This document shows positions 899 through 29,464 of a DNA stretch of 56,127 nt, in pieces. Every line of letters begins with the position of its first letter. The stretch's first letter is position 1. A model generated the notes under the pieces. That model worked only from the letters and a program-made list of their open reading frames with translations, was not told where the DNA came from and did no database searches. The stretch comes from a virus. Both the position numbers and the translations under genes were made by a program. The stretch covers positions 1 through 56,127 of the IMG/VR virus record IMGVR_UViG_3300017956_005956; one strand, written 5' to 3'.

Positions 899-1457
899 AC
901 TCTCTTTCTTTACAAGCACCGCACTCTTTGCAAGGTTTATTTCCTGCTACAGGTTCATCACAAGTAAATGTCAAATTATATAGCTCAACCAAATTATTTT
1001 TTTTATACAAATTCACAATGTCTTTTTTGTCTATGTTTATAAAAGGAGCATATATTGATTTATTATGCATCCACACACTCTTTTTGCCTTTGCTAGACCT
1101 AGGATCATACTTAGGACCATCCCATTGCATATGAGGAGGGTTAGCATTTACCCCAAAACAAGTTACATATCCATTTTTGTATTCATTATACATAATTTCT
1201 AAATATTTTTCATTTTCATTTTTGTCTTCGATATAATTTATAATATGGTCAATATTTAAATTACTAGTTTTGTTAATACACCATTGTATAACATTGTTAA
1301 CAGGACGTAACATATGGTAATTTGTTCTTCTTTCAACAATCGTAAAAATATGTGTCTTTGTGTTTGGTTGCTGACTTAACAAAAAATATAGCAACAAAGA
1401 ACTTTCTACTCCGCCTGAAAACCATATATTCTTTGGTTCATAAAATTTTTTTATCAT
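882..1457 (-). CDS. PP-loop ATPase with QueC-like zinc-binding tail
   Basis: This 191-residue protein has an N-terminal PP-loop (SGGVESS, residues 14-20), the ATP-pyrophosphatase signature of enzymes that adenylate a carboxylate or carbonyl. It ends with four cysteines, C166, C176, C179 and C182, spaced as in the QueC zinc site (C-x9-C-x2-C-x2-C here). QueC makes preQ0, but no FolE, QueD or QueE homologue is visible nearby, so a 7-deazaguanine role is not supported. A different amide- or nitrile-forming reaction is possible. The start codon overlaps the upstream stop in a TAATG junction, so translation is probably coupled to the preceding hydroxylase gene. Confidence 0.7.
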   Translation of the reverse strand: MIKKFYEPKNIWFSGGVESSLLLYFLLSQQPNTKTHIFTIVERRTNYHMLRPVNNVIQWCINKTSNLNIDHIINYIEDKNENEKYLEIMYNEYKNGYVTCFGVNANPPHMQWDGPKYDPRSSKGKKSVWMHNKSIYAPFINIDKKDIVNLYKKNNLVELYNLTFTCDEPVAGNKPCKECGACKEREYGEGR

Positions 1458-1972
1458 TAATTATTTATATCTGTACAGCCTACCATATGAACCCTAGGGC
1501 TATGGTAAGCATTTACAAATGTATGTAATTTTGTTGTATCAACTAAATAAACTTTTCCTTCTTCTAAATGATAATGTTTTTTGTAGTCAGGAAAATAAAA
1601 AAAACAATTTTCATTTGTAAAAATTGGTATGTGCAGTCGTTTAGTCATATCTTTATGTAATTTGTAACAGGTTTTATACTCTAATCGCAGAATCCTTGTC
1701 CGATACAAATTAAAATGTTTTATAATACCTACAAATTCACTATTTACAAATTTTTCATGTAACTCAGCAAAATCCTTTTCACATGTATTATTATCATATT
1801 CTGTTAAAGATTCTAAACCGTCATAAAGCGCCCATGGATTGCACGTACCTTTCCTATGCTGTACAGAAAATCCTCCAAATCTGAATGAAATAGATTTATG
1901 AATATTAGCTTCAGTGAGTTTTTGCAACTCATGCAAATTTACATCAAAATCTAATTGCTCAACTAATTCCAT
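1457..1972 (-). CDS. Aspartyl/asparaginyl beta-hydroxylase-like oxygenase
   Basis: The product is 171 residues long and has the complete facial-triad pattern of this 2OG-Fe(II) group: H106-K-D108, distal H150 (TTKLHTF) and a following arginine, R160 (SPRVHM), expected to hold 2-oxoglutarate. The RLHIPI segment after the HxD motif and the EGKVYLVDTTKLH segment are typical of aspartyl beta-hydroxylases. It sits between a radical-SAM gene, which it overlaps by 14 nt, and the PP-loop gene. The N-terminal half is not recognisable and may recognise the substrate. The fold and cofactors are a good call; the target (virion protein, peptide or sugar) is unknown. Confidence 0.75.
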   Translation of the reverse strand: MELVEQLDFDVNLHELQKLTEANIHKSISFRFGGFSVQHRKGTCNPWALYDGLESLTEYDNNTCEKDFAELHEKFVNSEFVGIIKHFNLYRTRILRLEYKTCYKLHKDMTKRLHIPIFTNENCFFYFPDYKKHYHLEEGKVYLVDTTKLHTFVNAYHSPRVHMVGCTDINN

Positions 1973-3080
1973 TTAGCCTCATTTTAGGAATTTTACTATC
2001 AGCACTTGAAACACAACTGTCGGTAATACAAATTCCTGGTTTATCAAATAATTTAAATCCAGTTTCAATATTTCCTAAAGGAACATCATGGCAGCTATAA
2101 CTTCTCTTTACGCTTCCGTCAGGTTCCCTAATTATTATACCTTGAAACCCTGCATTACAGCTCCATCCTTTAAACTTATTAAAATTAAAAGCATTAAATC
2201 TTTCTGCTTGATCCATATACCATTTTTTTCCATCTTTATCAGTAAATTCTACTTGCATATGCCATGGAACACCTGCATCATTCTTACCCATTATTCCAGG
2301 ATTAATATCGTATGATGGCTTTGGTCGATCTTGCCACTTACGCTTAGATTCTGTGTAGGCACGCTGCGGCATTCCATTCCATAATTTTTTTAATTGTTCA
2401 TCTGTATACCCATCAACAACACGACTAGCAGTAGGATCGCTCTGTGGTTTTAGTGTTACATTTATTCCTTGTTCATGAAAAAATAACGCATTTTCCCAAT
2501 CTCTATCAAACCATTCTGGCACCATTACTTGATTAATTGTAATTTGTACATCGTTTTCTTGACAAAGTATTAGCTTATCTGCAAATTCTTGCATTTGTTC
2601 TTTTGTGCATACATGTTCAGTATGCAAACTTGCAGTAATACTTGCCCTATGGAATGGTTTTACATATTCAACGTACTGTTTAAACCATTCCATTGATCTA
2701 GAACAATTACTAGTCATGTGTATGCTTGTATAATTTGTATTAGGCACATCATCTGCGAGATATTTTAAAATATCTAAATATCCTGGATGGAATGTAGGTT
2801 CACCACCAGACAAACTAAAATGGAAACTATTAAATCCATTATTCCTAGCCTGCTTCTTTATTTCATCTATAGTTAATAGACATAATTTTGTAGGCCTGTG
2901 ATCTTTTGTATTTGATCTTGCATATGGCCAACAATAAGAACAGCGATAATTACAATACCTACCCAATAGCCACGAAACTGTAAAAAGATCTCTATATAGT
3001 AATGTTCTTTGTCCAACTTGAACTAAGTTATTAAATGGTATTTTAGTAAAATCATAGTTGGACCATTTTAAATCATTCAT
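1959..3080 (-). CDS. Radical SAM protein with cysteine-rich C-terminus
   Basis: The 373-residue product has the radical-SAM [4Fe-4S] triad C43-x3-C47-x2-C50, followed by a canonical GGEP motif at 92-95 that contacts the SAM amino group. The barrel continues to about residue 290. The last 70 residues carry further cysteines (in SCNAGF, YSCHDVPLGN and CITDSCVSSAD), which suggests a SPASM-like auxiliary cluster. It is the only radical-SAM protein in the cassette of this layout. The start ATG lies in an ATGA overlap with the upstream twitch-type gene. It should generate a 5'-deoxyadenosyl radical to modify a peptide, protein or sugar substrate. The substrate cannot be inferred. Confidence 0.85.
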   Translation of the reverse strand: MNDLKWSNYDFTKIPFNNLVQVGQRTLLYRDLFTVSWLLGRYCNYRCSYCWPYARSNTKDHRPTKLCLLTIDEIKKQARNNGFNSFHFSLSGGEPTFHPGYLDILKYLADDVPNTNYTSIHMTSNCSRSMEWFKQYVEYVKPFHRASITASLHTEHVCTKEQMQEFADKLILCQENDVQITINQVMVPEWFDRDWENALFFHEQGINVTLKPQSDPTASRVVDGYTDEQLKKLWNGMPQRAYTESKRKWQDRPKPSYDINPGIMGKNDAGVPWHMQVEFTDKDGKKWYMDQAERFNAFNFNKFKGWSCNAGFQGIIIREPDGSVKRSYSCHDVPLGNIETGFKLFDKPGICITDSCVSSADSKIPKMRLNGIS

Positions 3081-4561
3081 TCTAAGTATTTTTTAAATTT
3101 AGGCGATAAGTCTAACAAATTTGTTTCTTTAACTTTATCATAGGCTATTGTTTGCCTTTTAAAAATATCTAATAATTCTTTTCTTGTTGGCAAAGGATAA
3201 TCATCTAGTATGGGCCATTTTGTTCTATCCGTTGTTCCGGTATGTTTTATAAGTAGTTCTTTTGCTGCTGCATTTGCTGGTACTCTTGGATTATTATTAT
3301 ATCTCCAAAAACCTTCGCCTAGCGGAACATCTAACAAAACTTCAAATGGTTGTATTAATTTTTTATATGCATGTTTACTTTTCCTATTTAATTCATACCA
3401 CGGTTTTGCCTTAGGATCATGCTTATCTATTTTATAAAACTTTTTTATTTTATTTAATTCATTCCTAAACCATTCTTTATCATCGTCGTCTAGTAATGAT
3501 GGGCAAAGCCAATCTTTATTTCGTATTCGCATTACATTACACGGTCCGCTATTTCCTACATTATAATAATTATGCTGCCAGTCCTCTATAAACCAAGGTA
3601 ACCATTGATCTACAGTTAATGCATTATACATTTGAAAGACTAAATTAATGCCAATATACGATTCAGTTGGAACATTTCGTATTTGTTCTAAATTTGTTCT
3701 ACATTTTTCCCAATCGGCTGGATCTCTGATATATTCAAAAGTTTTACCAGTTCCTTCTAAAGAAATTGTTAAACTAATTTTTTTAAATTTAGATAATAAA
3801 TCAAAATATCTATCTGTAAGAGTAGCATTTGTAGTCATGTTTAATGTTACTTCTTTTGCTTTTCCGGAATCAACTAAAAATTTTAAAATTTTAACAACAC
3901 CTTTGTCGGCTAACGGTTCACCTCCTAATAATTTTATATATTTGACATGGGTTAAATCTAATCCTTCTTCTATAATTTTACTAGTCTTTTCTCCGTCGTA
4001 TGCAGGGTAGCTAGATGTTCCAAAAAATTCCATTAATTCTGGATTTTTTTCTACATCGTCATTGATTTTTGAACTGTTAACTGTTGTACACATCCTACAT
4101 GTCAAATTACATAAATTACTAGGTCGCAAATCTAAATCATATGGAGTTTCTAAATTATTGCCTTTAACTACATCTAATTCCTTATAATTATCTTTTAACC
4201 AATCATAATTCCTTTGCAGATGTGTAAATCTATCACTACGCATGCCTCTTTTTTCTCTATCTTGACATGTTTCACAACCCTTTGTAGGCCATTCATTTTT
4301 TAAAAAACTTTCTCTAATTTTTTGCCATTTATCACCCTCCCAAATTCTTTTAAGTTCTTGATTAAAATACTTAGGATTTTTAAAAAGTTCATCTTTATTT
4401 AAAGTTTCATAATCAGAAAAGACGCAGCAAGGTCTAACTTTACCATCAGAAAAATTACTGTACAAAGATGTAAACGGAACTGGACAAAAATTATATTCTT
4501 TAAGTTTTTCTGGATTTTTATCAAAATCAATCCATTCTTCTAAATCTTTAATATTTTTCAT
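3077..4561 (-). CDS. Twitch-domain radical SAM protein (N-terminal cluster domain)
   Basis: The product is 494 residues. Before the radical-SAM core lies a cysteine domain with C26 (FCPVPF), C45-C46 (VRPCC) and C96/C99 (KGCETC), read as an auxiliary Fe-S (twitch/SPASM-like) domain at the N-terminus. The core triad is C151-x3-C155-x2-C158 (CNLTCRMC), followed by LLGGEP. NCBI names such proteins twitch-domain-containing radical SAM proteins. An upstream in-frame start at 4600 would overlap the preceding gene by 43 nt; the ATG at 4561 gives the ATGA junction used across this operon and is chosen. It is one of four paralogues in the window. The reaction is unknown. Confidence 0.85.
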   Translation of the reverse strand: MKNIKDLEEWIDFDKNPEKLKEYNFCPVPFTSLYSNFSDGKVRPCCVFSDYETLNKDELFKNPKYFNQELKRIWEGDKWQKIRESFLKNEWPTKGCETCQDREKRGMRSDRFTHLQRNYDWLKDNYKELDVVKGNNLETPYDLDLRPSNLCNLTCRMCTTVNSSKINDDVEKNPELMEFFGTSSYPAYDGEKTSKIIEEGLDLTHVKYIKLLGGEPLADKGVVKILKFLVDSGKAKEVTLNMTTNATLTDRYFDLLSKFKKISLTISLEGTGKTFEYIRDPADWEKCRTNLEQIRNVPTESYIGINLVFQMYNALTVDQWLPWFIEDWQHNYYNVGNSGPCNVMRIRNKDWLCPSLLDDDDKEWFRNELNKIKKFYKIDKHDPKAKPWYELNRKSKHAYKKLIQPFEVLLDVPLGEGFWRYNNNPRVPANAAAKELLIKHTGTTDRTKWPILDDYPLPTRKELLDIFKRQTIAYDKVKETNLLDLSPKFKKYLE

Positions 4562-5661
4562 AGGTCTATAGTATTCCTTATTATTGTATGTTCGCCACAC
4601 CTACGTGTACATTCTTTTAATCTTTTATTTGTTTTAGATGTAAAATTATTATTAAAACTTTCTTCTAAATCATTTTTAAAAAACGGATGAGAAATAATTT
4701 CTTCTAGTGTGTAATAATTTAAATTATTCCAATTTTTATCATATCTACATCCAAATTTATCAACCCATTCATTCCATTTTTTACTATCGCCAAATTCAAC
4801 ATACGCACCCGAATGATGACAACACATATAAACTAAGCCATCAAAAGACAAATACATTTTTTGTTTTTTATACCATTCGCATTCAACTGCCCCATTGCTG
4901 TAATACTGATTAATGTCGCCATTATATTTGGTATCTACTAATTTTTCTAAATTAGACAATCCTTCTTTTGCCATATTTTCAAATACAGGAACAACTTTTT
5001 TATCTACATTTTTTTCATAAAGTTTTAATATCTCAACATTTAATCTTTTTGTTTTTATAAAAATTTTTTTAAATCCTAACTCTTTTGAAATTTCTTTAGC
5101 TTTTTCTACTAAATGATGGTTATGCTGAAAACTTAGATATTGCCAATGTGCATTTCCGCCTGCATTAATAAATGCTTTTGCATTTTCTATAACACGGTCA
5201 TAAACTACATTCTTTCTATATATTTCATGAGATTCATTATCTATTCCATCAATTCCAAATTCTACATAGCTATCCTTACGAAAATTATTTTTTAAATATG
5301 TTCCTAATTTACTCCACCAACTAATGTTTCTTATACCCCCATTAGTATGAATTTGTATTTGAATTTTTTCTTCTCTATTTACAGTACTGCTAATTAAATA
5401 ATCTAACAAATTAAAAAAATTAGGATATAAAATAGGATCTCCGAAATTTCCATTAAATTGTATTGTTTTAATTCCTTGCAAAACTTTATCATTAAAAAAT
5501 TTTTTAAAAATTTTTTCTGCCAAAATACCTTTTGGTCCTACAGGTAATAATGGATTTACTGTTTCGCCTTTATCATTTCTGGCACACTGCAAACACATAG
5601 AATTACAATTACTTGTAACTTCAACCATTACAGTGCTTAAATTAGATATATCTATTATCAT
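4558..5661 (-). CDS. Radical SAM/SPASM protein
   Basis: The 367-residue product starts almost directly with the radical-SAM triad (C19-x3-C23-x2-C26, in SNCNSMCLQC). Instead of the usual GGEP it has GNFGDP, a variant shared with the paralogue at 15756. The C-terminal third contains C-rich segments (VECEWYKKQ, YMCCHHSG and ECTRRCGEH) typical of a SPASM domain with auxiliary clusters. Both ends use ATGA overlaps with twitch-type radical-SAM genes, so the two types are translated together and may act as a pair. SPASM enzymes usually modify peptides or proteins, but sugar substrates are also known. Confidence 0.85.
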   Translation of the reverse strand: MIIDISNLSTVMVEVTSNCNSMCLQCARNDKGETVNPLLPVGPKGILAEKIFKKFFNDKVLQGIKTIQFNGNFGDPILYPNFFNLLDYLISSTVNREEKIQIQIHTNGGIRNISWWSKLGTYLKNNFRKDSYVEFGIDGIDNESHEIYRKNVVYDRVIENAKAFINAGGNAHWQYLSFQHNHHLVEKAKEISKELGFKKIFIKTKRLNVEILKLYEKNVDKKVVPVFENMAKEGLSNLEKLVDTKYNGDINQYYSNGAVECEWYKKQKMYLSFDGLVYMCCHHSGAYVEFGDSKKWNEWVDKFGCRYDKNWNNLNYYTLEEIISHPFFKNDLEESFNNNFTSKTNKRLKECTRRCGEHTIIRNTIDL

Positions 5662-7058
5662 TCTAAATATTTTACTAATTGTGGTACAAGTTTACGAATA
5701 TCGGTTCCTCTAATTTTATCAAGAAGTAAAGTCTTTTCTTTAAATTCGATTAAATTCTGATTTTTATTTTGTGATCTAAATTTTTTATTTAAATCTGTTT
5801 CAATGGGATAAGAATTATCTATCTCTACTTTAAATTCATCTTCGATACTGTTAAACGGCCATTGATGCTCGGTCGGAATGTTATTTTCATAAACAAACTC
5901 TTTCCATTGACTACGAATAAAATCTTTATCCTTGTCATCAAGCATACTAATACTCATATACCTAGGTTCAACAAGCCTATGAGGATGAGTAAAATTTGTT
6001 TTTATTTTACGTGGATCATTTTTATATTGATATGCAATATCATATGTAAACTTCATCCACTCTTTTATTTGGAATATATTATACATAGACAACACAGAAT
6101 TAAATCCAAACCCTATTGTATTATCCATTTTTATTAATCTATGGACAATATCAACAGTTTCGCTCCATTTTGTTCCATATCTCACATATTCTGCAAGATC
6201 TCCGACTGCGTCTATACTTAATCTCCATTCTATTCCTGCAAAATGTTGTAACACATCTTGCATTCTTGTAGGTAACTGACTACAATTTGTGATAATTTTT
6301 AAATATGTATCTTTAGCAGTATTACTTTCAACAAATTTTTGGAAAATTCTATAAACATTTTTATCAATTAAAGATTCGCCTCCGCTTATTTTAAGCCATT
6401 TTACTCCGCTTAAATCAAATGTTTTATATATATTATATTCATCCGAATCCCAGTCTGGCGGCTGACGTAAAACATTTCCACTACGACTTTCTTGGTCAAA
6501 ATAAGAACCTTGCAGTTCTGGATTTTGATCTATTTCTTTTTGCCACTGATTACTCCAAATGCTTGAACAAGTCATGCATTTAAAATTACAAGTATTTCCT
6601 GGTCGTAAATCTACATCAATAGGTTTTTTAAAATCCTTTGTGCCTTCATTAACATCCCAAGTAAGATTTCCTAATTCTTTATCTTTAAAATGATGTATAT
6701 ACTTATGGATGTACCCAATTCTAACACTATCAAACCAATTTTGGTTTTCTTCTGCAACTTTACAATAGTTACATGCTTTTGGCCACTTACCTTCTAAAAA
6801 ATCTTTTCTAATATCAACAAGTGTTTCACCTGTTCCTGGATAATGATTCCATGCTTCTAAATTACCATTCCAAAAATCTTGCTGTATTTCGGATAATTGC
6901 TTTCCGTCTTCTAATGGTTTTTTTAATCTACTAACTGCAGGAGTCATACAACAAGGCCGCAATGCCTTGTTATTCAAATTAATGTAGGCATTTAAAAAAG
7001 GTGCAGGGCAAAATATTTTGTTTTTCCATTCTTTTGCTACTTCTTCAATGTTAGCCAT
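5658..7058 (-). CDS. Twitch-domain radical SAM protein
   Basis: The 466-residue product is a paralogue of the gene at 3077. It has the N-terminal auxiliary-cluster cysteines C17 (FCPAPF), C36-C37 (RPCC) and C96/C99 (KACNYC), then the core triad C157-x3-C161-x2-C164 (CNFKCMTC) in a DLRPGN context, and ISGGES in place of GGEP. The C-terminal 170 residues lack motifs I can name and probably form the end of the barrel. The start ATG overlaps the upstream stop by 8 nt. Two genes of this type stand next to each other here (this one and 7051), which suggests local duplication and divergence. Confidence 0.85.
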   Translation of the reverse strand: MANIEEVAKEWKNKIFCPAPFLNAYINLNNKALRPCCMTPAVSRLKKPLEDGKQLSEIQQDFWNGNLEAWNHYPGTGETLVDIRKDFLEGKWPKACNYCKVAEENQNWFDSVRIGYIHKYIHHFKDKELGNLTWDVNEGTKDFKKPIDVDLRPGNTCNFKCMTCSSIWSNQWQKEIDQNPELQGSYFDQESRSGNVLRQPPDWDSDEYNIYKTFDLSGVKWLKISGGESLIDKNVYRIFQKFVESNTAKDTYLKIITNCSQLPTRMQDVLQHFAGIEWRLSIDAVGDLAEYVRYGTKWSETVDIVHRLIKMDNTIGFGFNSVLSMYNIFQIKEWMKFTYDIAYQYKNDPRKIKTNFTHPHRLVEPRYMSISMLDDKDKDFIRSQWKEFVYENNIPTEHQWPFNSIEDEFKVEIDNSYPIETDLNKKFRSQNKNQNLIEFKEKTLLLDKIRGTDIRKLVPQLVKYLE

Positions 7059-8241
7059 TTATATACCTTACTATATCTTTATGTAAAACTTTATATGTTT
7101 GCTGCCGATATTTATCTAAAATTGCAGTTGATCTTTTTAGAGCTGATAACTTAGACTCGTCTGTTTCTTTACAAATATCTAAATACTTTCTAAAATCATT
7201 TACTAAACTCTTTTCTCTTGTAATTTCTTTTTCAAATTTAGAAAAAGCAGAAAATACTAAATCATATGGTAAGTATTTAATATTATATTCACTATCCAAA
7301 GGTCTAACAAAATAGTCTATAAAAAAGCTGAATTGATGCGGATTATGCCTATAATATTGTATTTTTAAATCATTACACCATTGCCATAATTCTCCTACAT
7401 TAAAAACATTGTAAACTTGTCCTAAACAACTTACACCTATATTAATATGTTCATATGAAGCACAAAACTTTACTAAATTTTGTATTCTTTTTTCTAAAAT
7501 TTTCCACTTATAAGGAAATCTTATATAATCATATGTATTACCAATTCCATCAACACTAATTCTAATTTTAACTTTTTTAAATTTAACAATTTTATCTAAT
7601 AAAGCATCATTAAATTTTGTTCCATTAGTTGTAAAATCTAAAACAATATTTTTACATTTTCCTGATTCAACAAAATAATTGACTAAATCTAACCATCTTG
7701 TCTGCATAGTAGGTTCGCCTCCTGTTGTTTTAAATTTATAAAGATCCAACAACTTTAATTGGTTGTCAATGTCAATTGGTAATCTTGCTTTATCGTCTTC
7801 CCATAAAGACATTCCTTTCCAATGATCTGGTAACTCGCTTCCTAAAGATTTTATTGTTTCATTAATTTTATTACTACTAGTTGTGCTACACATTCTACAT
7901 TCTAAATTACATTCATTAGAAAATTTTAAGTCTACACTTTTCACTCTTGGCTTGTCTACAAAATTATCTACAAAAACTTTAAATGTTTCATTATAAGCCT
8001 GACGCTGACTACGCATTCCTTTTTCTTCTGTTATTTTACAAATATTACATTGCGAAGGCCAATTTCCTTGCCTAAATTGATCTCTTATATCTTCCATTAT
8101 GCTAGACTTCATCATATCTTCCATAGATATGTCTTTTGCATCAAGATTTAAAGGCGTATCTGAATGACAACAAAGTTTATACTTATGGTTTGGATTTATT
8201 GTTAAATGCATCCAAGGTAACACACAAAAATTATTTTTCAT
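7051..8241 (-). CDS. Twitch-domain radical SAM protein, shorter form
   Basis: This 396-residue member of the twitch-type set has N-terminal cysteines C6 (FCVLPW), C24-C25 (KLCC) and C65/C68 (SQCNIC), followed by the core triad C111-x3-C115-x2-C118 (CNLECRMC) and TTGGEP. The region between the auxiliary domain and the core is shorter than in its paralogues, which explains the smaller size. It overlaps by 11 nt the end of the first of three genes from an unrecognised family, so the two groups belong to one transcript. The radical-SAM assignment is firm. The reaction is not known. Confidence 0.85.
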   Translation of the reverse strand: MKNNFCVLPWMHLTINPNHKYKLCCHSDTPLNLDAKDISMEDMMKSSIMEDIRDQFRQGNWPSQCNICKITEEKGMRSQRQAYNETFKVFVDNFVDKPRVKSVDLKFSNECNLECRMCSTTSSNKINETIKSLGSELPDHWKGMSLWEDDKARLPIDIDNQLKLLDLYKFKTTGGEPTMQTRWLDLVNYFVESGKCKNIVLDFTTNGTKFNDALLDKIVKFKKVKIRISVDGIGNTYDYIRFPYKWKILEKRIQNLVKFCASYEHINIGVSCLGQVYNVFNVGELWQWCNDLKIQYYRHNPHQFSFFIDYFVRPLDSEYNIKYLPYDLVFSAFSKFEKEITREKSLVNDFRKYLDICKETDESKLSALKRSTAILDKYRQQTYKVLHKDIVRYING

Positions 8242-9790
8242 TATTTTTTTCTAAAAACTCATCTAAATCTAAATTAGTTAGAAATCCACTTGATTGGGTA
8301 AATAACATTCTATTTTTCCATTTACAATACGGATCATAAAAATGCACTGAGGGAATAACTCCAAAAGTTACATGTTTTGCTTTAATAAAATCTGCATAAT
8401 TTTCTTTAAATCTTTTATATAAATTATAATCTGTGTCTTCAAATAAATTTTTACTTTCGTTTCTTAATGATGAAAAATAATTTTTTGTATTATATAATAA
8501 TCTACTTGTAAAAATATTTGAAATCCATAAAAAAACAGTATCATTCTGAGATAAAAAATTAATATTTTCTACTGCTTCTTTTGAAGAAATATCAAAATTT
8601 ATAAATTTAATCTTATTATCAAAAAACCTTTTCCTTATTTTATCATAAATTTCTTGAAAACTATCAATATTATTCCAATTTTGCAATTCCTTTTTCCATA
8701 AATTAGCCTGATCTTGCCAAAAACTATTAGAATTTAATTTATCTTTAAAATTCGTTTTATTAGATTTAATGTCTTTAGTGGGCAATATACTTTCAAAATT
8801 AGATAACATTCCTATAGAAAACTCATCTTTAAAATGAGTTTTTAAAAATTTTTCAAAAGACTCATGTTTAGGACCAGGCCATTTTGATAGCAAGAAAAAT
8901 TTGAAAAACAAAGATGTTGAATTTATATCAAAAAATATTATTTCTCCATTTTGATAACTCATTTCTTTTAATATCCAAAAAGAAAAAAAGCCAGATGAAA
9001 CTAAAAAATATTTTTGAAATGCTATTTCATTGCTAATTTGATTTAAACTTAGGTGCCTATTTATCATTTTACCATTTTTGCAATAATATCCTGATCTTTC
9101 GCCTATATCGTTAATTAAAATTTCATTATTAATATATGATTCGGTATTATAAACATATACATGCCTTCCAAAACCATTTAACCATTCGTCTCCAAATTTT
9201 GTTTTATTCCAATTTCTATATATATATGGATTTGTTTTTGCTTTATCAAAATAGGCATCTATAGATTTTGAAATACAAAAATCATTAACATTATTTTCAT
9301 AATATTTTACTTCGCATAATCTTAAAAAAGATTTTCTATCTAATCTGTCTTTAAAAAAATCAACTTTTTCTAATATCTTTTTAATATTTAATACTGCAAA
9401 ATTAAATTCATCACTATCTGCCAAAATATCAGCGTCATTATTCACTGCATCTTTTATTCTATCTTTTATAAAATTCAAACTAGGAGTTACACCAACTTTA
9501 ATATAACAAAAATATGTTTCGTCTAATATTACTCTGTGCTTATATAAACTAATTATACTATGCTTTACACTTAAATAAAATGAATTAACTAAACTATCAA
9601 TATAAAATTTATAAGTTCCTTCACGCGGTCTTATATACCAGCCTATTTTTTGTGCAAAATACTCTTTGCTTAATTCAAGTAAATCATTAAAACTATTATC
9701 ATCAAAACCATCATTTTCATATCTATTAGGATCTAAACAATAAAATGTTTTATTTTTATATATCGCATCATAATTAACTTTATTCTCCAA
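8231..9790 (-). CDS. Unrecognised family, paralogue 1 of 3 (possible Rossmann/methyltransferase fold)
   Basis: I do not recognise this roughly 519-residue protein by family. It shares ordered motifs with the next two upstream genes: a YVYNTESY segment, VSSGFFSFWIL, FFDINSTS with a following KWPGPK, and LWISNIF near the C-terminus. A glycine turn, then an acidic residue ending a strand, then a later strand-loop would suit a Rossmann-like fold such as a SAM methyltransferase, but that is inference. The frame is open to a TTG at 9811. A second in-frame TTG at 9790 follows a full AAAGGAG at 9 nt spacing and leaves only an 11 nt overlap, so I prefer it. Confidence 0.55.
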   Translation of the reverse strand: MENKVNYDAIYKNKTFYCLDPNRYENDGFDDNSFNDLLELSKEYFAQKIGWYIRPREGTYKFYIDSLVNSFYLSVKHSIISLYKHRVILDETYFCYIKVGVTPSLNFIKDRIKDAVNNDADILADSDEFNFAVLNIKKILEKVDFFKDRLDRKSFLRLCEVKYYENNVNDFCISKSIDAYFDKAKTNPYIYRNWNKTKFGDEWLNGFGRHVYVYNTESYINNEILINDIGERSGYYCKNGKMINRHLSLNQISNEIAFQKYFLVSSGFFSFWILKEMSYQNGEIIFFDINSTSLFFKFFLLSKWPGPKHESFEKFLKTHFKDEFSIGMLSNFESILPTKDIKSNKTNFKDKLNSNSFWQDQANLWKKELQNWNNIDSFQEIYDKIRKRFFDNKIKFINFDISSKEAVENINFLSQNDTVFLWISNIFTSRLLYNTKNYFSSLRNESKNLFEDTDYNLYKRFKENYADFIKAKHVTFGVIPSVHFYDPYCKWKNRMLFTQSSGFLTNLDLDEFLEKNNEK

Positions 9791-11282
9791 AATAATTAAC
9801 TCCTTTATCAAAATATCCTGTAGTTTGAGTAAATTTTGATTTATGCTTCCAACCTAAATGCCTATCATACGATACTACTGGCAATGATCCTAAGATCATA
9901 GTTGGAAAATTTATATTTTCAATAAAATCAGAAAAAATCTTGTAAATTTTAAAATTAACATCATTAAATTGACTCAAATTTTTATCAGCCATTGTGTTAT
10001 CATAATCTGAAGTAAAATACAATAAATTAGAACTAAAAATATTTGAAATCCACAAAAATGTTTTTTCTTTTTTAGAAAAATAATTTATTTTTTCTATGCC
10101 TTGATTTGTTGTGATATCTGTCAACAAAAATTTAATCTTTTGTTGCCACAAAGATGTTTTAACTTTATCAAAAATACTTTGAAATTTATCTATATTTTTC
10201 CATTTTGTAAGCTCAGTTTGCCAAATTTCTTTTTCTCTAATCCATAAATCATTATTATCCATGATTTTTTGATACTCTAATTCATCATAATATCTAACAA
10301 ATTCCGGAGGCAAATCATGCTTAAAATTTTTTATTAAAATACTAGCAAAATAATTATTTGAAAAATTATTTTTTATAAATAAATCAAAATCTTCATACTT
10401 TGGTCCAGGCCATCTTGCCAAAACAAAAAATTTAAACATTAAAGATATTGCATTTATGTCATAAAACATTATTTCTTGATCATTATATTCAAGATTATCA
10501 AGAATCCAAAAAGAAAAGAACCCTGACGAAACAAAAACAAATTTATCAAACTTAATTTTTTCATTAATATTATTTAAATCTACTTCTTTTTCTAATATAG
10601 ATTTATTACTTGTAATGTAGTTATTATTTAAATTATTAATTATTTTTTGCTTACTTATGTAATCTTCAGTATTGTATACGTAAGCTTGTAACCCAAAACC
10701 ACTGATATAAACTTCTATTTGCTTTAACGAATGATATTTTGGCAATTCTTTCTTTATGTATGTATCAATATTTTTACAAATCCTATAATAATCATTATTT
10801 TTTTCCCAATAATGAACATTTATATTTTCAAATAATTCTTTTATATTAAGTTTTATATCCGGTAAAGATTTTAATTTCATGAAAATCTTTTCTAAATTAA
10901 AAATTGCAAAGTTTCCACCTTGACAAGTAGATGCAATCTCATAATCATTTTCAATCATATCTAATAAACTATCTTTAATTACCTTTAAACTTGGATAGAC
11001 TCCTATTTTAAAAAAAATCAAATAATTTTTTTTAATACTTAACTTTGAATCATCTGACAAAATCATACTATCATTATAGACATAATAAAATATATGAGAA
11101 AAACCAGCAATTTTAATTCTACTTGTCAAATCAACAGAGTTGACCTGCCTACATATTTCATATAAAAAATACTCATTACTTAAATGATTTAAAGCATGAT
11201 AATTTCTATCATCTAATCCTCCTTGCGAAGGATCTAACCCAAAATATACATTATTTTTCAATATTTTTTCAAAATCATTCAT
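9780..11282 (-). CDS. Unrecognised family, paralogue 2 of 3
   Basis: This 500-residue product is the middle member of the three-gene family. It shares YVYNTEDY, VSSGFFSFWIL, FYDINAIS, ARWPGPKYEDF, a W-x2-EL-x2-W segment and LWISNIF with its neighbours in the same order and spacing. No catalytic signature of a named family is visible, and there is no signal peptide or membrane segment. The start ATG lies in an ATGA overlap with paralogue 3 upstream, so the three are translated as a block. Tandem duplication is clear but old, because outside the shared motifs the sequences differ widely. The proteins may form a hetero-oligomer or act on different substrates. Confidence 0.55.
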   Translation of the reverse strand: MNDFEKILKNNVYFGLDPSQGGLDDRNYHALNHLSNEYFLYEICRQVNSVDLTSRIKIAGFSHIFYYVYNDSMILSDDSKLSIKKNYLIFFKIGVYPSLKVIKDSLLDMIENDYEIASTCQGGNFAIFNLEKIFMKLKSLPDIKLNIKELFENINVHYWEKNNDYYRICKNIDTYIKKELPKYHSLKQIEVYISGFGLQAYVYNTEDYISKQKIINNLNNNYITSNKSILEKEVDLNNINEKIKFDKFVFVSSGFFSFWILDNLEYNDQEIMFYDINAISLMFKFFVLARWPGPKYEDFDLFIKNNFSNNYFASILIKNFKHDLPPEFVRYYDELEYQKIMDNNDLWIREKEIWQTELTKWKNIDKFQSIFDKVKTSLWQQKIKFLLTDITTNQGIEKINYFSKKEKTFLWISNIFSSNLLYFTSDYDNTMADKNLSQFNDVNFKIYKIFSDFIENINFPTMILGSLPVVSYDRHLGWKHKSKFTQTTGYFDKGVNYFGE

Positions 11283-12781
11283 TTTTTTTCTAAATTTTTA
11301 ATATTATTATCTAAATTTATGTTTGTAACAAAGCCTCTTGTTTTATAAATCCTGGGCAAATAATTAAAATCTATATCATCTGTACACGTATAACTAAACG
11401 TTCCAAAAGACATATATTTTCCTTTAAATGATTTAATGTAATCATCCCTAAATTTTTTAAATAATGCAATATCAATATTATTTTCACAATCGTACCCTTG
11501 TCCAGATAACACATTTTGATAATTAAGATTTTCTAATAAACTTTTATAATCAAAAATATTAGAAGTCCAAATAAATGTTGTATTATCTTTTGTGTTATTA
11601 GCATAAAAATTTATTTTTTCAATGCCATCACGTGATGTTATATCACAAGTTACGTACTTTACTTTTCCTTTACCAGAAGCATACCTTACTATTTCAAAAA
11701 TTTCTTGAAAATCTTCTATACTATTCCATTTTTCTAACTCTTTCCTCCATAAAGTTGCTTGACTTTCTAAAAATTTTGTATCTAGGACATTATTTTTAAA
11801 AAAAGAATGTGAATCCTTGCCATTTTCTAAACCTAATAACGAGCTTGCAAAATAATTTTTACCTACAGAATTAAAAACAAACTGGTCAAATGGTACATAC
11901 TTAGGTCCTTTCCAATTAGCCAGCATAAAATCTCTAAAAATTACCGAAGAATTATTAATATCGTAAAATACAATTGTTTGTTTGCCTGTATACTTTAATT
12001 TTTGTAATAAATAAAAAGGATAAAAGCCAGCACTAACAAAACAAAATGAATCAAAATATAAGTCATTTTGTTTGATCATTTTTCCTAATTCTTCAAAATC
12101 AATAAAAAGATTTTTTTTGTTCCCATTAGCACATATATATTTTCCAGTGGTCAAATCATTTGTTAGATTATTTTTCGCATAATAATCTTCTGTGTTATAC
12201 AAATAGGTATTCTTACCAAATAATGACGAAAATATTTTATTAGCACCTATATAAATGCTATTAGGATCACTACTATTATACCATTCTAACCCTACTTCGT
12301 CATTGACATATTCTGTATTATGTTGAATTATATTTTTAAAAGTTAAATCATTTTCAAACAGATTTTTACTTTCTATTAATTTTTTTACATTTATTACTGC
12401 AAACCAAGGATTGTCTTTATTATCAATTAAAATAATTTTTTTACTTTTTTGTATTAATTGATAATACTTATAGATAAATTCTGTAGATGGATACGCACCT
12501 GGAAAAATAACAAATAAAAATTTTTCTTTTGCTACAATTTTATTTTTTTCTAAAACAAAAGAATTTTTAATTACACTAAGCAATGTTTTTTCAAATTGAT
12601 CATTTATATAAAAATGATTATGCATATCTCCATGATATACTAACTCATTAACTATATTATCTCTAAAAAATAATTTACTACTTTGAATTATTTCTTCTTT
12701 ATCTTCATTGTTTCCATAATTTTGTATAAAAGTAAACAAATAAAAAATTAATTTTTTATCCCGATATATACTATTAAACAT
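11279..12781 (-). CDS. Unrecognised family, paralogue 3 of 3
   Basis: The 500-residue product carries the family motifs YLYNTEDY, VSAGFYPFYLL, FYDINNSS, ANWKGPKYVPF, W-x2-EL-x2-W and IWTSNIF. It is the most divergent member, with a proline in the glycine-turn motif. The frame is open to an upstream start at 12823, but the ATG at 12781 (MFNSIYRDKK) aligns with the N-termini of the other two and overlaps the hydroxylase gene by only 8 nt, so I use it. The function is unknown. A methyltransferase-like fold is a tentative suggestion from the glycine-turn and DIN motifs. Confidence 0.55.
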   Translation of the reverse strand: MFNSIYRDKKLIFYLFTFIQNYGNNEDKEEIIQSSKLFFRDNIVNELVYHGDMHNHFYINDQFEKTLLSVIKNSFVLEKNKIVAKEKFLFVIFPGAYPSTEFIYKYYQLIQKSKKIILIDNKDNPWFAVINVKKLIESKNLFENDLTFKNIIQHNTEYVNDEVGLEWYNSSDPNSIYIGANKIFSSLFGKNTYLYNTEDYYAKNNLTNDLTTGKYICANGNKKNLFIDFEELGKMIKQNDLYFDSFCFVSAGFYPFYLLQKLKYTGKQTIVFYDINNSSVIFRDFMLANWKGPKYVPFDQFVFNSVGKNYFASSLLGLENGKDSHSFFKNNVLDTKFLESQATLWRKELEKWNSIEDFQEIFEIVRYASGKGKVKYVTCDITSRDGIEKINFYANNTKDNTTFIWTSNIFDYKSLLENLNYQNVLSGQGYDCENNIDIALFKKFRDDYIKSFKGKYMSFGTFSYTCTDDIDFNYLPRIYKTRGFVTNINLDNNIKNLEKK

Positions 12782-13433
12782 TTTGATATCTCTTGATAAA
12801 ATTATTCCATGCGTTAAGTACATGTTTTGCCCAAAAATTCATATTAATTTCTCCATGTACAATGATATGAATCCTGTCATGTTTTGAATTATTTTTTAAC
12901 TCGTGATTAAAAGCATTACAAAATAAAAAACAAGACCCGTCTTTAATAGGAATATTTCCCCAATTTTGAATATTAAAAAAACATTCTTTAGGTTGACTTA
13001 AAGAAAAATGGTAACATCCTAAATTATAATCAGACCTCAATGATCCATCTTTATTATTTGGTAAATCATTATGTAGTACAATGTGTCCTTCTGGCTTTAA
13101 TTTCATAAATCTAATCCTGTCAAAACGATTAAACAACCCAGAACTTAAAAAATTTTTTGTTACAGGACAATTTACAGCAATTTCTGTCCATTCAGGATTA
13201 GGATTATCAATGTTATATTTCGAATGATGATAAATTGATTTTTTTGCATCTCCATTGTGCCCATATAAAGAAATTACTTCCCAATTAACACAATTTCCTG
13301 TTCTATATGGCACATACTCTAACTTCTTAGCTTCGGCTAACATATCTAAATATGGAAACGTAATTGTGTCAAGCATTAACCAAGGAAGTTTAGACTCTCG
13401 TAACACCCATTGAGCTTGCTCTGCTAGGTACAT
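12774..13433 (-). CDS. Aspartyl/asparaginyl beta-hydroxylase-like oxygenase
   Basis: The 219-residue product has the facial-triad pattern H121-N-D123 (VLHNDL), distal H177 (AFNHEL) and a 2-oxoglutarate arginine R187 (HDRIHI), spaced as in aspartyl/asparaginyl beta-hydroxylases. The GCYHFSLSQP and IPIKDGSCFLF segments between the metal ligands fit the beta-helix strands of the family. A clear AAGGAGT ribosome binding site precedes the ATG. The gene sits between the SPASM half of a split radical-SAM gene (2 nt gap) and the three unrecognised paralogues. An oxygen-dependent enzyme therefore follows oxygen-sensitive radical enzymes in one operon. The substrate is unknown. Confidence 0.75.
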   Translation of the reverse strand: MYLAEQAQWVLRESKLPWLMLDTITFPYLDMLAEAKKLEYVPYRTGNCVNWEVISLYGHNGDAKKSIYHHSKYNIDNPNPEWTEIAVNCPVTKNFLSSGLFNRFDRIRFMKLKPEGHIVLHNDLPNNKDGSLRSDYNLGCYHFSLSQPKECFFNIQNWGNIPIKDGSCFLFCNAFNHELKNNSKHDRIHIIVHGEINMNFWAKHVLNAWNNFIKRYQNV

Positions 13434-13435
13434 TT

Positions 13436-13747
13436 TTACTCCTTATGGAAAATATCTACAAATTTATCTCTATCTTTAATAATACAAGTTTTTTTACATT
13501 TTTCTACAGGCTCATTTGTATTCCATGATTCTTTAATTTCAGTGAATAATGCGCCATTAATAATTTCATCTATGGTCTGTTCATATAAACTATTATTATA
13601 CAATTTATTCAATTTACCAAATTTTGTTTTTGGCAGTTGACCTGCAGCCATATTTACTGCTTCTGCATTGACATAACAACAAGGAATTAATTCTCCTAAA
13701 TGATTAATAAAAAGTCTATTTTGATTACCATATTTACAATCAATCAT
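13436..13747 (-). CDS. SPASM-like C-terminal half of a split radical SAM protein
   Basis: This 103-residue ORF has no radical-SAM core. It begins IDCKYGNQNRLFINHLGE and has PCCYVNAEAV and CKKTC. These align with the C-terminal SPASM segments of the fused paralogues at 4558 (VECEWYKKQ, YMCCHHSG) and 15756 (INCKVKNEG, LPCCWTAG). Its ATG overlaps the TGA of the preceding core ORF (ATGA) and is in the -1 frame relative to it. The junction falls exactly at the boundary between barrel and SPASM domain. It is probably the second subunit of a two-piece enzyme. A frameshift mutation or sequencing error is the alternative. Confidence 0.7.
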   Translation of the reverse strand: MIDCKYGNQNRLFINHLGELIPCCYVNAEAVNMAAGQLPKTKFGKLNKLYNNSLYEQTIDEIINGALFTEIKESWNTNEPVEKCKKTCIIKDRDKFVDIFHKE

Positions 13748-14337
13748 GCCTTAATTTCTCCATTATTTTTACGATGAGAATATATTGTTCTAAATCTAGC
13801 AAATCCTTCGTTAATTGACATTTCACGTGCTTGATTTAACAAATGCTCATTATGGTTAAAAACAATAAATTGCCAGGTTGCTCTTCCACCGGCTTTGATA
13901 AATGCACGCCAATTATTTTGTACTTTTTTAAAATTTGATTTTACCCTATATTTTTGTAATGATTCTTGGTCAATACCGTCTATACCAAAAAAAACTGATA
14001 TTTGCCTATTTCCTAACTCTTTCCAAAATTCTTCGGTTTTTGTAGATCCGTTACTTGCAACATTTACACTTGTAAAATCTCTAAAATAATCTACTATCTC
14101 TATAAATTCAGGATGAGTAGTAGGTTCATCAACCGATCCACAAAAATTAATAATTTTCAGATTAGGAAGATATCCAGGATATATCCATTTTTTTAAATCA
14201 TATAATTTTATGTAAGACTTATTTAAAATATGGCTTATCTGCTTATTCATCTCTTGCCTTAAACAGCCAGGGCATGCAATATTACAATACGAAGTTAATT
14301 CAATATCAATCCATTCTATACTTTCTTTTGTCCACAT
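13744..14337 (-). CDS. Radical SAM core half of a split radical SAM/SPASM protein
   Basis: The 197-residue product has the triad C18-x3-C22-x2-C25 (YCNIACPGC) and a degenerate GSVDEP in place of GGEP. It runs through the barrel (FFGIDGIDQES, AGGRATWQFIVFNHNEH) and stops at GEIKA. Fused paralogues in this window continue straight into a SPASM domain at this point; here that domain is the next ORF, joined by an ATGA overlap. No canonical slippery heptamer is visible at the junction, so coupled re-initiation is more likely than programmed frameshifting. Its own start overlaps the upstream stop in TAATG. Confidence 0.75.
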   Translation of the reverse strand: MWTKESIEWIDIELTSYCNIACPGCLRQEMNKQISHILNKSYIKLYDLKKWIYPGYLPNLKIINFCGSVDEPTTHPEFIEIVDYFRDFTSVNVASNGSTKTEEFWKELGNRQISVFFGIDGIDQESLQKYRVKSNFKKVQNNWRAFIKAGGRATWQFIVFNHNEHLLNQAREMSINEGFARFRTIYSHRKNNGEIKA

Positions 14338-15737
14338 TACAAAAAAATCTCTTTCATATCTGGAAAAATATCATTAAAATTTAATTTTCTTTGTACATCG
14401 CATTGTTTAATAAATTCTTGCATTTCAGGCAACCTAATACTCCAATCTTCTGATTCCATAAACTGTAACATTCCTTCTAGCCTACTAATTCCATAACTTG
14501 CATTTCTCCAATCAGTGTAAGAAATTTTATCTTTATGCCATCTAGGAATTCCTAACTTCCAATTATCCTCCCACCAAGGATAAAACTCTTCATATTTTTT
14601 GCGACATTTTTCTTTAAACCATTTTGGCAATATTTTAACGTTTAGATGTGGAGGATGATAAACAAAATGATAGTTTACACCTCCTGCACCAAACGGCCAC
14701 ATATTTACTTTGTTAAATTTTTGTTGTAATTTCCATTTTATAAAATCAGGTATGTAAAATATATTCAAGGCTTGGACTGCACAAGCTATTGTAACCTCTA
14801 CATTATTACTAGTTTCATTATCTAACAAATGAAATACTTCTTCAGTCCTATTCCATTGACTAGGATATCTAATATAATCATTCATTTCCTTAATACTATC
14901 AACACTATAATGAAATCTTACTAATTTAAATTCTTTCCATAGATCAAATAAATCATTTCTCCATTCTACACCATTAGAATTGTAACGTAATTCTAAATCT
15001 TTTGCATAACCCTGTTTTATACATTGTTCTAATATATCATAATGTTCTTCAATAATTAAGCTTTCGCCTCCTGCAAAATATATTTGCTGCATATTAGGAA
15101 TTTGTTCGTAAAACTGCTCCCAAAAAATAGGATTGTTTTTATGCCAATTATAACTACTTCCATTATAGCTACCTTTATCTTTCCATTGCATAGTTTCTTT
15201 TAAACTAGCATTTTCTATTTTTGGATATATTGCTTGCCAATCAGTTATCCAACCAGAGCTATCATGCGGGCTACACATTACACAAGCTAGTTGACATTTT
15301 GTTCCAAACCTTAAATCGATATATGTCAGTTTAGGAGGTACACTTCCGTCCTCATTTGTATCTACAATTAATTTATCAACATCGACTCTTTTGCTCCAAT
15401 ACCGTGTTTCCCACATTCTTTTACTGTTATGTCCTGCTGCTTCTTCCTTAAAACATTTTGTACAACTAGGTGGTATTTCTCCATTTAACATTTGTTTTCG
15501 TACATTTTTCATATATGTACTGTTCCAACTACTTACAAAATCACTGACATTTAAATTATTAGGTTTTCCGTCTTCAGTTTTTAAAATACCAACTTGTCCT
15601 CCATGTTCTCTGTCATTAGTAGGTCCTACAGAACTTGCATTTGCTGTGCAACAAACTCGCATACTTCCATCGGGTCTAGTGCTTAAATGAACCCAAGGTA
15701 AAATACAAAATGTAGATTTTTTATCGTCTAAATTCAT
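14337..15737 (-). CDS. Twitch-domain radical SAM protein
   Basis: The 466-residue product is the fourth twitch-type radical-SAM protein. N-terminal auxiliary-cluster cysteines are C11 (FCILPW), C29-C30 (RVCC) and C92/C95 (PSCTKC). The core triad is C148-x3-C152-x2-C155 (CQLACVMC), followed by FAGGES. It lies between a SPASM-type radical-SAM gene (15756) and the split SPASM-type gene (13744), repeating the pairing of the two types seen at 3077/4558. An 18 nt gap precedes it, one of the few gaps in the cassette. Its ribosome binding site is weak. Confidence 0.85.
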   Translation of the reverse strand: MNLDDKKSTFCILPWVHLSTRPDGSMRVCCTANASSVGPTNDREHGGQVGILKTEDGKPNNLNVSDFVSSWNSTYMKNVRKQMLNGEIPPSCTKCFKEEAAGHNSKRMWETRYWSKRVDVDKLIVDTNEDGSVPPKLTYIDLRFGTKCQLACVMCSPHDSSGWITDWQAIYPKIENASLKETMQWKDKGSYNGSSYNWHKNNPIFWEQFYEQIPNMQQIYFAGGESLIIEEHYDILEQCIKQGYAKDLELRYNSNGVEWRNDLFDLWKEFKLVRFHYSVDSIKEMNDYIRYPSQWNRTEEVFHLLDNETSNNVEVTIACAVQALNIFYIPDFIKWKLQQKFNKVNMWPFGAGGVNYHFVYHPPHLNVKILPKWFKEKCRKKYEEFYPWWEDNWKLGIPRWHKDKISYTDWRNASYGISRLEGMLQFMESEDWSIRLPEMQEFIKQCDVQRKLNFNDIFPDMKEIFL

Positions 15738-15755: not shown

Positions 15756-16823
15756 TTATGTAAATTGTGCTGAATAAGGATCAAACTCTTTGCCGCATTT
15801 AATTGCACAAACTTTTAACTTTCCATCTAGACAGCTTTTTTTTGTCCAACTATTTTCTATATCTTTAAAAATATTTGATTCAAAAACTTTTTGTAAACCA
15901 TTTTTTGCATTAATTGCGGATTTGTTTTCTATAAAATTCCAAACCTGTTCTATTTTAGGATCTTTGTGCCACCATTTATACATCCTGCCAGCTGTCCAAC
16001 AACAAGGTAGTGCTAAACCTTCTGCAGTTATAAACAAACTACCTTCGTTCTTTACTTTACAATTTATTGGAACTACATCATAATAATTGTCCATAGTGCC
16101 ATAATTTTCTAATATAGTAGGTAACTTTTTTACAGCAGTATTTTGAAATTCGTCTTTAGGTTTTGCAAGCTCTGCAGTCTTTTTACCTTTTTTATTAACT
16201 GCTTGATGTGTGTCCTTTACTTCAACATTTGCCGTTACAAATCGACCAGTTTTTTTCTTAATAAATTTTTCAAAACCCCATTCTTTACTAAGACGCTCCG
16301 CTTCTTCTACTTGATGTTGATTATGATCAAAAATTAAAAAATCCCAACGTCCTCTACCACCTGCACTTGTAAAACTACGCATTGATCTTTCTACGTTTTC
16401 CCAAACTACACCTTGTCTGTAGATATGATTAGTATCTTGCAACCCATCTACACTAAAAATTACAGCACCCATCCTGCCATAAATCTTAGCAAGCTCTTGC
16501 CACCAATTCTCATCTCTAGCACCTGCATTTGTATTCATACTTAACCACATTTTAGAATTATTCCTCCTAAAATATTCAAAAACCTCTAATGTATCACGAG
16601 CAACAATTGGATCGCCTAAATTACCGCACATATACATTGTAGATAATTGCGAAATAAAATCCGGTGTGAATATATTTTTTACATCATTAATTGTTAATTC
16701 ATCTAAGTTTATGTGAGGATTTAATGCACCCCCATTTTGATTCCTATCACACATAGGACATGAAGCTTGACAATTTTGAGTTATTTCTAAATGAATTGTT
16801 TTTATATCTCTATAATTATACAT
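15756..16823 (-). CDS. Radical SAM/SPASM protein
   Basis: The 355-residue product opens with the triad C18-x3-C22-x2-C25 (NCQASCPMC), has GNLGDP in place of GGEP, and ends with a SPASM domain (INCKVKNEG, LPCCWTAG, SCLDGKLKVCAIKC). The GNxGDP variant is shared with the protein at 4558, which marks a subfamily whose SAM-contacting loop differs from the twitch-type set. A lysine-rich insert around residues 190-225 separates barrel and SPASM domain and is not present in the split paralogue. The start overlaps the preceding 75-codon ORF by 8 nt. The substrate is unknown. Confidence 0.85.
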   Translation of the reverse strand: MYNYRDIKTIHLEITQNCQASCPMCDRNQNGGALNPHINLDELTINDVKNIFTPDFISQLSTMYMCGNLGDPIVARDTLEVFEYFRRNNSKMWLSMNTNAGARDENWWQELAKIYGRMGAVIFSVDGLQDTNHIYRQGVVWENVERSMRSFTSAGGRGRWDFLIFDHNQHQVEEAERLSKEWGFEKFIKKKTGRFVTANVEVKDTHQAVNKKGKKTAELAKPKDEFQNTAVKKLPTILENYGTMDNYYDVVPINCKVKNEGSLFITAEGLALPCCWTAGRMYKWWHKDPKIEQVWNFIENKSAINAKNGLQKVFESNIFKDIENSWTKKSCLDGKLKVCAIKCGKEFDPYSAQFT

Positions 16824-17043
16824 TTTCTGTTAGTAACTTAATGTCTTTTCCTGGTCCTACTTCGCTAGGCAATCCACCATACTCTTTCATATACCATTCT
16901 ATAACAGTTTTATACCAATTTTGACTATCGTGATGTGCTTGTTTATTAAATTGATATATATTATTATTTGTTGCTTCTATTGTAGCTAACGCACGAGAAC
17001 TTTCTTTTTGTAGCTTTCTTAGACTAAAATTTTCTAAATTCAT
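16816..17043 (-). CDS. Small conserved-context protein of unknown function
   Basis: This 75-codon ORF is linked on both sides: its ATG overlaps the stop of the GT-methyltransferase gene (ATGA), and its stop overlaps the next radical-SAM gene by 8 nt. I read it as a real gene because of that context. The product is mostly charged and polar, has no cysteine, and ends with a GPGKDIKLLTENV tail. No domain is recognised. A small ORF just before a radical-SAM/SPASM gene could be a substrate or carrier peptide, but nothing in the sequence proves it; a small accessory subunit is equally possible. Confidence 0.6.
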   Translation of the reverse strand: MNLENFSLRKLQKESSRALATIEATNNNIYQFNKQAHHDSQNWYKTVIEWYMKEYGGLPSEVGPGKDIKLLTENV

Positions 17044-29456: not shown

Positions 29457-29464
29457 TATTTATC
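29457..29464 (-). promoter_or_regulatory. T4-type late promoter variant (GATAAATA)
   Basis: The minus strand reads GATAAATACATACATAGGA, with the ATG of the 28825 gene 18 nt past the box. One mismatch to the T4 late consensus, at its first base. The box overlaps the last codons of the giant gene. The AGGA-to-ATG distance matches the other late promoters in the window. Confidence 0.55.

Follow-up and report, generated by a model that had tools for sequence, protein, structure and literature searches.

What are the products of three overlapping genes that lie amid the radical S-adenosylmethionine (SAM) enzymes of a marine phage, and what might they do there? The genes, here called A, B and C, are tandem open reading frames (ORFs) on the minus strand at positions 8231–12823 of IMG/VR virus record IMGVR_UViG_3300017956_005956, a 56-kb record whose whole length of 56,127 nucleotides (nt) constitutes the window of this analysis. 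An initial annotation, made from the letters alone, took them for three paralogues of no known family, tied to the radical SAM cassette. Profile comparisons instead place them as divergent members of a large, unnamed and widespread phage protein family, not as a private novelty; that family combines a predicted glycosyltransferase A (GT-A)-like domain with a methyltransferase-like domain and travels with a 2-oxoglutarate (2OG)/Fe(II) hydroxylase. The genes concerned are as follows.

8231–9811, minus strand: paralogue A, 526 amino acids (aa) from the first TTG; predicted degenerate GT-A-like N-domain and class I methyltransferase-like C-domain.
9780–11282, minus strand: paralogue B, 500 aa; predicted architecture as in A.
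11279–12823, minus strand: paralogue C, 514 aa, or 500 aa from the ATG at 12781, where the initial annotation ended it; predicted architecture as in A.
12774–13433, minus strand: homologue of PF05118 Asp/Asn β-hydroxylases, directly upstream of C and overlapping its start.

The kinship of the three copies is clear. All of the motifs listed in the initial annotation are found in A, B and C in identical order, and the lengths given there (about 500–519 residues) hold: C and B have 500 aa from the starts used, and A has 519 aa if translated from a second TTG, seven codons further in and preceded by AAAGGAG. Pairwise identities are 36 and 29%; tblastn with B gives 36% identity to A (E=8.5e-91) and 34% over ~408 residues of C (E=1.4e-44). 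Since successive genes overlap or abut (hydroxylase and C by 50 nt, C and B by 4 nt, B and A by ~30 nt or less depending on the start chosen for A, and A and the following radical SAM gene by 11 nt), the hydroxylase, C, B, A and that radical SAM gene look like one transcription unit.

Is there truly no family for these proteins? Nothing rose above threshold in Pfam, NCBIfam (curated cut-offs) or PHROGs (E<1e-3); the best library match, Pfam THSD1_N, scored 19.5 bits against a cut-off of 27 (E 0.00085) and was dismissed as chance. No match was returned by phmmer or hmmsearch of the PDB, and no relatives were found by tblastn of B and C against INPHARED or of B against PLSDB, or in two IMG/VR scans and one scan of GTDB contigs that used single proteins and the initial alignment. 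A, B and C are too diverged for such direct searches. Relatives were reached by way of the neighbourhood: the radical SAM gene at 14337–15737 served as bait for 80 loci from other marine viruses, all proteins of these loci were clustered and the resulting profiles were compared with A, B and C. One cluster, of ~450-aa proteins from loci L063, L023, L008 and L075, is clearly related (profile–profile P=96.9, E=1.3e-10), with YNTE, SAGL, FYD, WxG, DI and SNIF in register. IMG/VR scans with this cluster yielded 87 relatives and then at least 552 confirmed ones, 118 distinct members being fetched for analysis. In GTDB only five contigs of metagenome-assembled genomes (MAGs) carry one.

The reverse comparison supports the same assignment. 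An iterated hidden Markov model search seeded without the three paralogues recruits all of them (C, 2.9e-18; B, 6.7e-13; A, 1e-11), and the final family profile, also built without them, scores C at 1.6e-16 (60 bits), B at 2.2e-12 (47 bits) and A at 3.2e-11 (43 bits). The best unrelated ORF reached 19 bits, and no reversed ORF or shuffled sequence (600 shuffled copies) appeared among the top 15 scores. The match to the family is far beyond chance. The absence of a known family thus stands in so far as Pfam, NCBIfam, PHROGs and the PDB hold no entry for the trio, nor do Pfam and PHROGs have a family entry for 28 diverse members searched there, but the three proteins do not stand alone.

In a 69-member family tree A, B and C form a single clade with 100/100 support on a long stem, from which we place the triplication inside their own lineage; C lies nearest to the family profile. 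The island radical SAM gene also led to 50 whole related records; of these, L004 alone, itself a piece of the same virus, has the triplet, which rules the triplet out as a general trait of radical SAM islands. Tandem or paired family copies do recur, in L113, L119, L199, L207, L208, L210, L211 and L218.

What fold do these proteins adopt? An AlphaFold2 (AF2) model of B built from three sequences is poor, with a predicted local distance difference test (pLDDT) score of 42.7. Its more confident core, residues 245–412, runs β-α-β-α, a helical insert and β-α-β, with FVSSGF, FYDIN, LLTDIT and LWISNIF as strands 1–4, and Foldseek matched the model to mixed NAD and SAM Rossmann proteins at E-values of at least 0.1; we treat model and matches as a hint only. 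The canonical relative L023, modelled with 69 sequences (pLDDT 91.7, predicted template-modelling score 0.89), is predicted to have two domains, a GT-A-like domain at the N-terminus and a Rossmann domain of the class I SAM-methyltransferase type at the C-terminus. In the PDB, its N-half is matched by GT-A proteins (LH3 at 2e-4, LARGE1 at 6e-4, a PBCV-1 glycosyltransferase at 2e-2 and also LgtC) and its C-half by the methyltransferases XrdM, ToxA and CmoA (probability 0.97–1.00, E 4e-3 to 6e-2). As the output carries no query ranges, the half covered by each match was judged by how long the alignment is and in what order the predicted elements follow. The E-values against the PDB are modest, which makes the domain assignments good but not final.

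In BFVD the first matches of L023, ahead of GT-A proteins, are three uncharacterised Caudovirales proteins (A0A6J7WK42, A0A6J7WH01 and A0A6J5KYS8 in UniProt), aligned over their full length with TM scores of 0.69–0.80 and E-values of 7e-29 to 2e-22. The modelled structures indicate that they belong to the same family; they bear no function or family name, and the likeness rests on the L023 model, not on A, B or C. With XrdM, ToxA and CmoA the C-domain shares the fold, an acid at the end of β2 and a polar-N motif after β4; it differs in that GxGxG is cut to one G, in a helical insert between β2 and β3 that is longer in A, B and C, and in the GT-A-like domain in front.

The Rossmann fold that the initial annotation had deduced from a glycine turn and an acid-ending strand is accordingly borne out in part. 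A class I methyltransferase-type core is predicted, with matches to SAM methyltransferases and with VSSGF, DIN and SNIF in strands 1, 2 and 4, but it occupies the C-terminal half only, the SAM glycine loop is reduced, and the N-half, GT-A-like in relatives, brings matches of its own.

These matches raise the question of whether A, B and C are themselves glycosyltransferases, with a GT-A-like domain whose site is unusual (metal-independent or His/Asp-based) and has diverged, the Rossmann domain then binding a nucleotide sugar or dinucleotide. The best Foldseek E-values are those of GT-A folds, the canonical N-domain has conserved His and Asp residues, NAD(P)-Rossmann proteins are among the matches of the low-confidence B model, and phage islands of this kind are described as rich in glycosyltransferases (PMC7029224). 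The canonical His/Asp residues are, however, absent from all three proteins, and the confident C-domain matches of the good L023 model are SAM methyltransferases, so that we judge a glycosyltransferase role unlikely.

The residues make the asymmetry between the two halves plain. At 13 positions of the N-domain the same residue recurs in 58 or more of 65 relatives (G82, H108, H120, Q122, R153, N157, H159, D160, Y162, T163, P164, R204 and K207). A appears to keep only G82 and N157 of these, B G82, D160 and Y162, and C G82 and D160; the family motifs GH, HxQ, RSx2NxHDxYTP and RxxK are lost in all three. A plain string search found neither GH nor HDxYTP in B or C, and HDxYTP is absent from A by inspection. 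In the C-domain, the family motifs (a conserved Tyr, FYD, D/N after β3 and SN-I/V-F) persist, with Y211, D280 (conserved in 65/65 members), D353 and N377 present in every copy, as is SSGF or SAGF. Even if single positions are misaligned, the alignment plainly contrasts loss in the N-half with retention in the C-half. A, B and C appear to be a homologous, degenerate branch, and we call them descended from the family, a term that lays no claim to its activity. Such degeneration has occurred a second time, independently, in L119 and L121 (11445–12596 in each), where a second copy on the opposite strand lacks GH and HDxYTP and an intact copy lies alongside.

Which neighbour, then, does the family follow? 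Radical SAM genes flank the triplet on both sides, five of them downstream and, upstream, two and a further one that is split, as the proposed tie to a radical SAM cassette would have it; the partner that tracks the family is nonetheless the PF05118 hydroxylase. A homologue of the hydroxylase at 12774–13433 lies within six genes of the family member, mostly next door, in 53 of 60 non-redundant loci, compared with 34 of 60 for the largest cluster of radical SAM genes. For 98 of the 118 distinct members the hydroxylase is on the same contig, within 100 bp in 67/118 and within 5 kb in 97/98; many of the members without one lie close to contig ends. Among the 80 loci chosen by their radical SAM gene, with the same-virus fragment replaced by the window, the hydroxylase is present in 7/7 loci that have a family member and in 4/73 others (Fisher 1e-7; L063, L064 and L065 are identical). 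On a Bacteriovoracaceae MAG contig the two are fused, a single 681-aa ORF (L247:9794–11836) comprising the family at residues 28–433 and the PF05118 hydroxylase at 467–675; this contig also holds several radical SAM genes.

This linkage bears on the possibility that the trio consists of ordinary SAM methyltransferases with no relation to the hydroxylase, the triplication having provided for substrates that the radical SAM cassette handles in parallel. The methyltransferase-like Rossmann core and the abundance of radical SAM genes on either side would fit such a role, but the stronger hydroxylase linkage, the fusion and the presence of a second, N-terminal domain make it quite improbable. The hydroxylase of the window retains the Fe ligands H121, D123 and H177 and the 2OG-binding R187 and departs from several other family-invariant positions, so that both partners have diverged in this phage.

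We propose the following scheme. In canonical members, the neighbouring PF05118 hydroxylase would most likely install a hydroxyl group, which the two-domain protein would then elaborate by glycosyl transfer, methyl transfer or both, a division of labour like that of human LH3. In the present phage the GT-A-like site seems to have been erased in all three copies and the methyltransferase half retained, and for this reason we consider A, B and C, as an expanded and divergent branch of this GT-A-like/methyltransferase-like family, most likely to methylate what the upstream hydroxylase produces, or to serve there as SAM-binding partners, while the dead GT-A domain would do no more than bind substrate; we put the probability of this reading at roughly 50%. 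Because the cassette sits in a host-recognition island (see below), the target would probably be a surface glycan or lipid or a phage tail-fibre protein.

Several observations weigh against this proposal. (i) The good model is that of L023, not of A, B or C: the GT-A fold is seen there, the N-domain of B being of low confidence in the shallow AF2 model, and the class I methyltransferase order of strands and helices is complete in L023 and partial in B. Even for L023, the PDB matches are modest (E 2e-4 to 4e-2, TM ~0.45 or below per target). (ii) The N-domains of A, B and C align weakly to the family, and some of the residue losses could be misalignment. (iii) A DxD metal site is absent from A, B and C and from canonical members, which have x-x-G at the usual place, and canonical glycosyltransferase activity is putative. 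(iv) The glycine loop of the methyltransferase domain has a single G (51/65 members; SSGF or SAGF in A, B and C) and GxGxG motif I is absent, leaving SAM binding uncertain; we describe the family as methyltransferase-like and do not file it as a methyltransferase. (v) Y381 of SNIFxY is lost in A and B, C being the sole copy of the three to have it. (vi) Pelagimyophages are reported to have the hydroxylase as a core gene (PMC7029224), and the co-occurrence could in part reflect shared ancestry of one island.

Some of these points would suit a different reading, in which both domains of A, B and C are dead and the proteins serve as a hetero-oligomeric scaffold or as specificity subunits through which the hydroxylase and the radical SAM enzymes receive their substrates. 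The lost N-domain residues, the loss of Y381 in two copies and the minimal glycine loop are what pseudo-enzymes might show, as is the retention of three very divergent copies side by side; paired copies also recur elsewhere, including the intact and degenerate pairs of L119 and L121. Against it, D280 and N377, the positions expected to contact a cofactor, are kept in all three together with SSGF/SAGF and the strand-3 D. We regard this role as possible, if on the doubtful side.

A point of comparison for the two-step scheme is LH3 (PLOD3), the best PDB match of L023, in which a GT-A glycosyltransferase, an accessory dead GT-A domain and a 2OG/Fe lysyl hydroxylase are combined. The likeness lies in the pairing of hydroxylation with glycosylation; the LH3 hydroxylase is not known as a PF05118 protein. 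LH3 differs from the family in that its metal site is DxxD and a methyltransferase domain is lacking, and the root-mean-square deviation of the match is ~15 Å across domains. Its accessory domain has a GT fold with activity apparently lost (PMC6082870). We treat LH3 as an analogy, not as a family member.

The wider setting of the triplet comprises the following features.

1457–8241, minus strand: downstream tailoring cassette, five radical SAM genes (1959–8241) and a second PF05118 protein (1457–1972).
7051–8241, minus strand: twitch-type radical SAM protein, whose gene shares the 11 nt noted above with the end of A.
14337–15737, minus strand: N_Twi_rSAM radical SAM island anchor (NF033640, 1e-123), 66–100% identical in the 80 IMG/VR loci.
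15756–16823, minus strand: second conserved radical SAM island anchor, conserved across the compared loci.
17040–19586, minus strand: 848-aa island anchor with a repeated GT-A-like segment (read by eye), present in 76/80 loci.

The window belongs to a large T4-like phage, with a baseplate wedge (phrog_10646, 2e-281), hub/lysozyme and tail-fibre genes across its right half and radical SAM genes, PF05118 oxygenases and glycosyltransferase-like genes in its left part. Across the 80 loci the anchors at 17040, 16816, 15756, 14337 and 1959 are common and the content between them differs. On other contigs the family adjoins gp13/gp14-type connector genes. The host recognition cluster is described as hypervariable; the island lies between VrlC and gp14 and holds tail fibres, glycosyltransferases and cassettes of radical SAM genes (PMC7029224). 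For one T4-like genome, 12 radical SAM genes are on record (PMC5332604). Because the connector genes beside the family match the published cluster, we assign the cassette to such a hypervariable island for host recognition in a T4-like phage. Like the pelagimyophage and cyanomyophage clusters, this island lies in the structural region, and in the loci compared here its anchors are conserved and its content changes; a two-domain family paired with a hydroxylase is not described in the part of that account used here (PMC7029224).

Besides the neighbours given in the initial annotation, the cassette includes two PF05118 hydroxylases, perhaps a third, and a gene for a QueC-like protein. The possible third, an otherwise unassigned 236-aa protein at 209–919, may be a PF05118-like oxygenase: its homologue at L246:7669–8316 matches the hydroxylase profile at 8e-8. 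The QueC-like protein at 882–1457 (191 aa; PF06508, phrog_1550) is short, the PHROG profile being about twice as long. The radical SAM gene at 13436–14337 consists of two ORFs that overlap by 4 nt, one for the radical SAM part (13744–14337) and one for SPASM only (13436–13747); relatives in L018, L024 and L050 are single ORFs of ~315–325 aa, and the split is identical in L004, which comes from another sample. The 848-aa anchor has two copies of the GT-A-like segment (VIIDGDNIVD and WVVDGDAEIV), a Rossmann-like C-terminus and no Pfam match; homology of its last part to the family C-domain was considered on the basis of sub-threshold profile matches and set aside when hhalign gave no support. 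A further cluster from the 80 loci (cluster 8, L013 and others), at first a candidate relative of A, B and C (P=41%), failed with a deeper profile and reads as SGNH-hydrolase-like (GCSWTHG ... HFGxxG). These 18 proteins, L013:12233–12907 among them, recur in the radical SAM islands, and a Pfam search of one gave no match. In the baseplate and tail-fibre region, 29460–46037 is a single ORF of 5525 aa whose position suggests a VrlC-type structural protein; tblastn of a 1000-aa stretch of it (29463–32462) found no match in INPHARED.

What were three orphan ORFs become the degenerate edge of a large, unnamed family of marine phages with at least 552 IMG/VR matches, and the family gains a predicted fold, a predicted two-step chemistry, a genetic partner and, in the natural fusion, a protein ready for direct expression. 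By analogy, and tentatively, marine T4-like phages may carry an LH3-like system that hydroxylates and then glycosylates or methylates, tailoring tail fibres or the envelope of the infected cell; the present phage would have a three-protein version with dead glycosyltransferase halves that has turned to methylation or scaffolding instead. If the proposed chemistry is true, it would bear on why T4-like marine phages keep hypervariable islands of radical SAM, oxygenase and glycosyltransferase genes beside their tail fibres.

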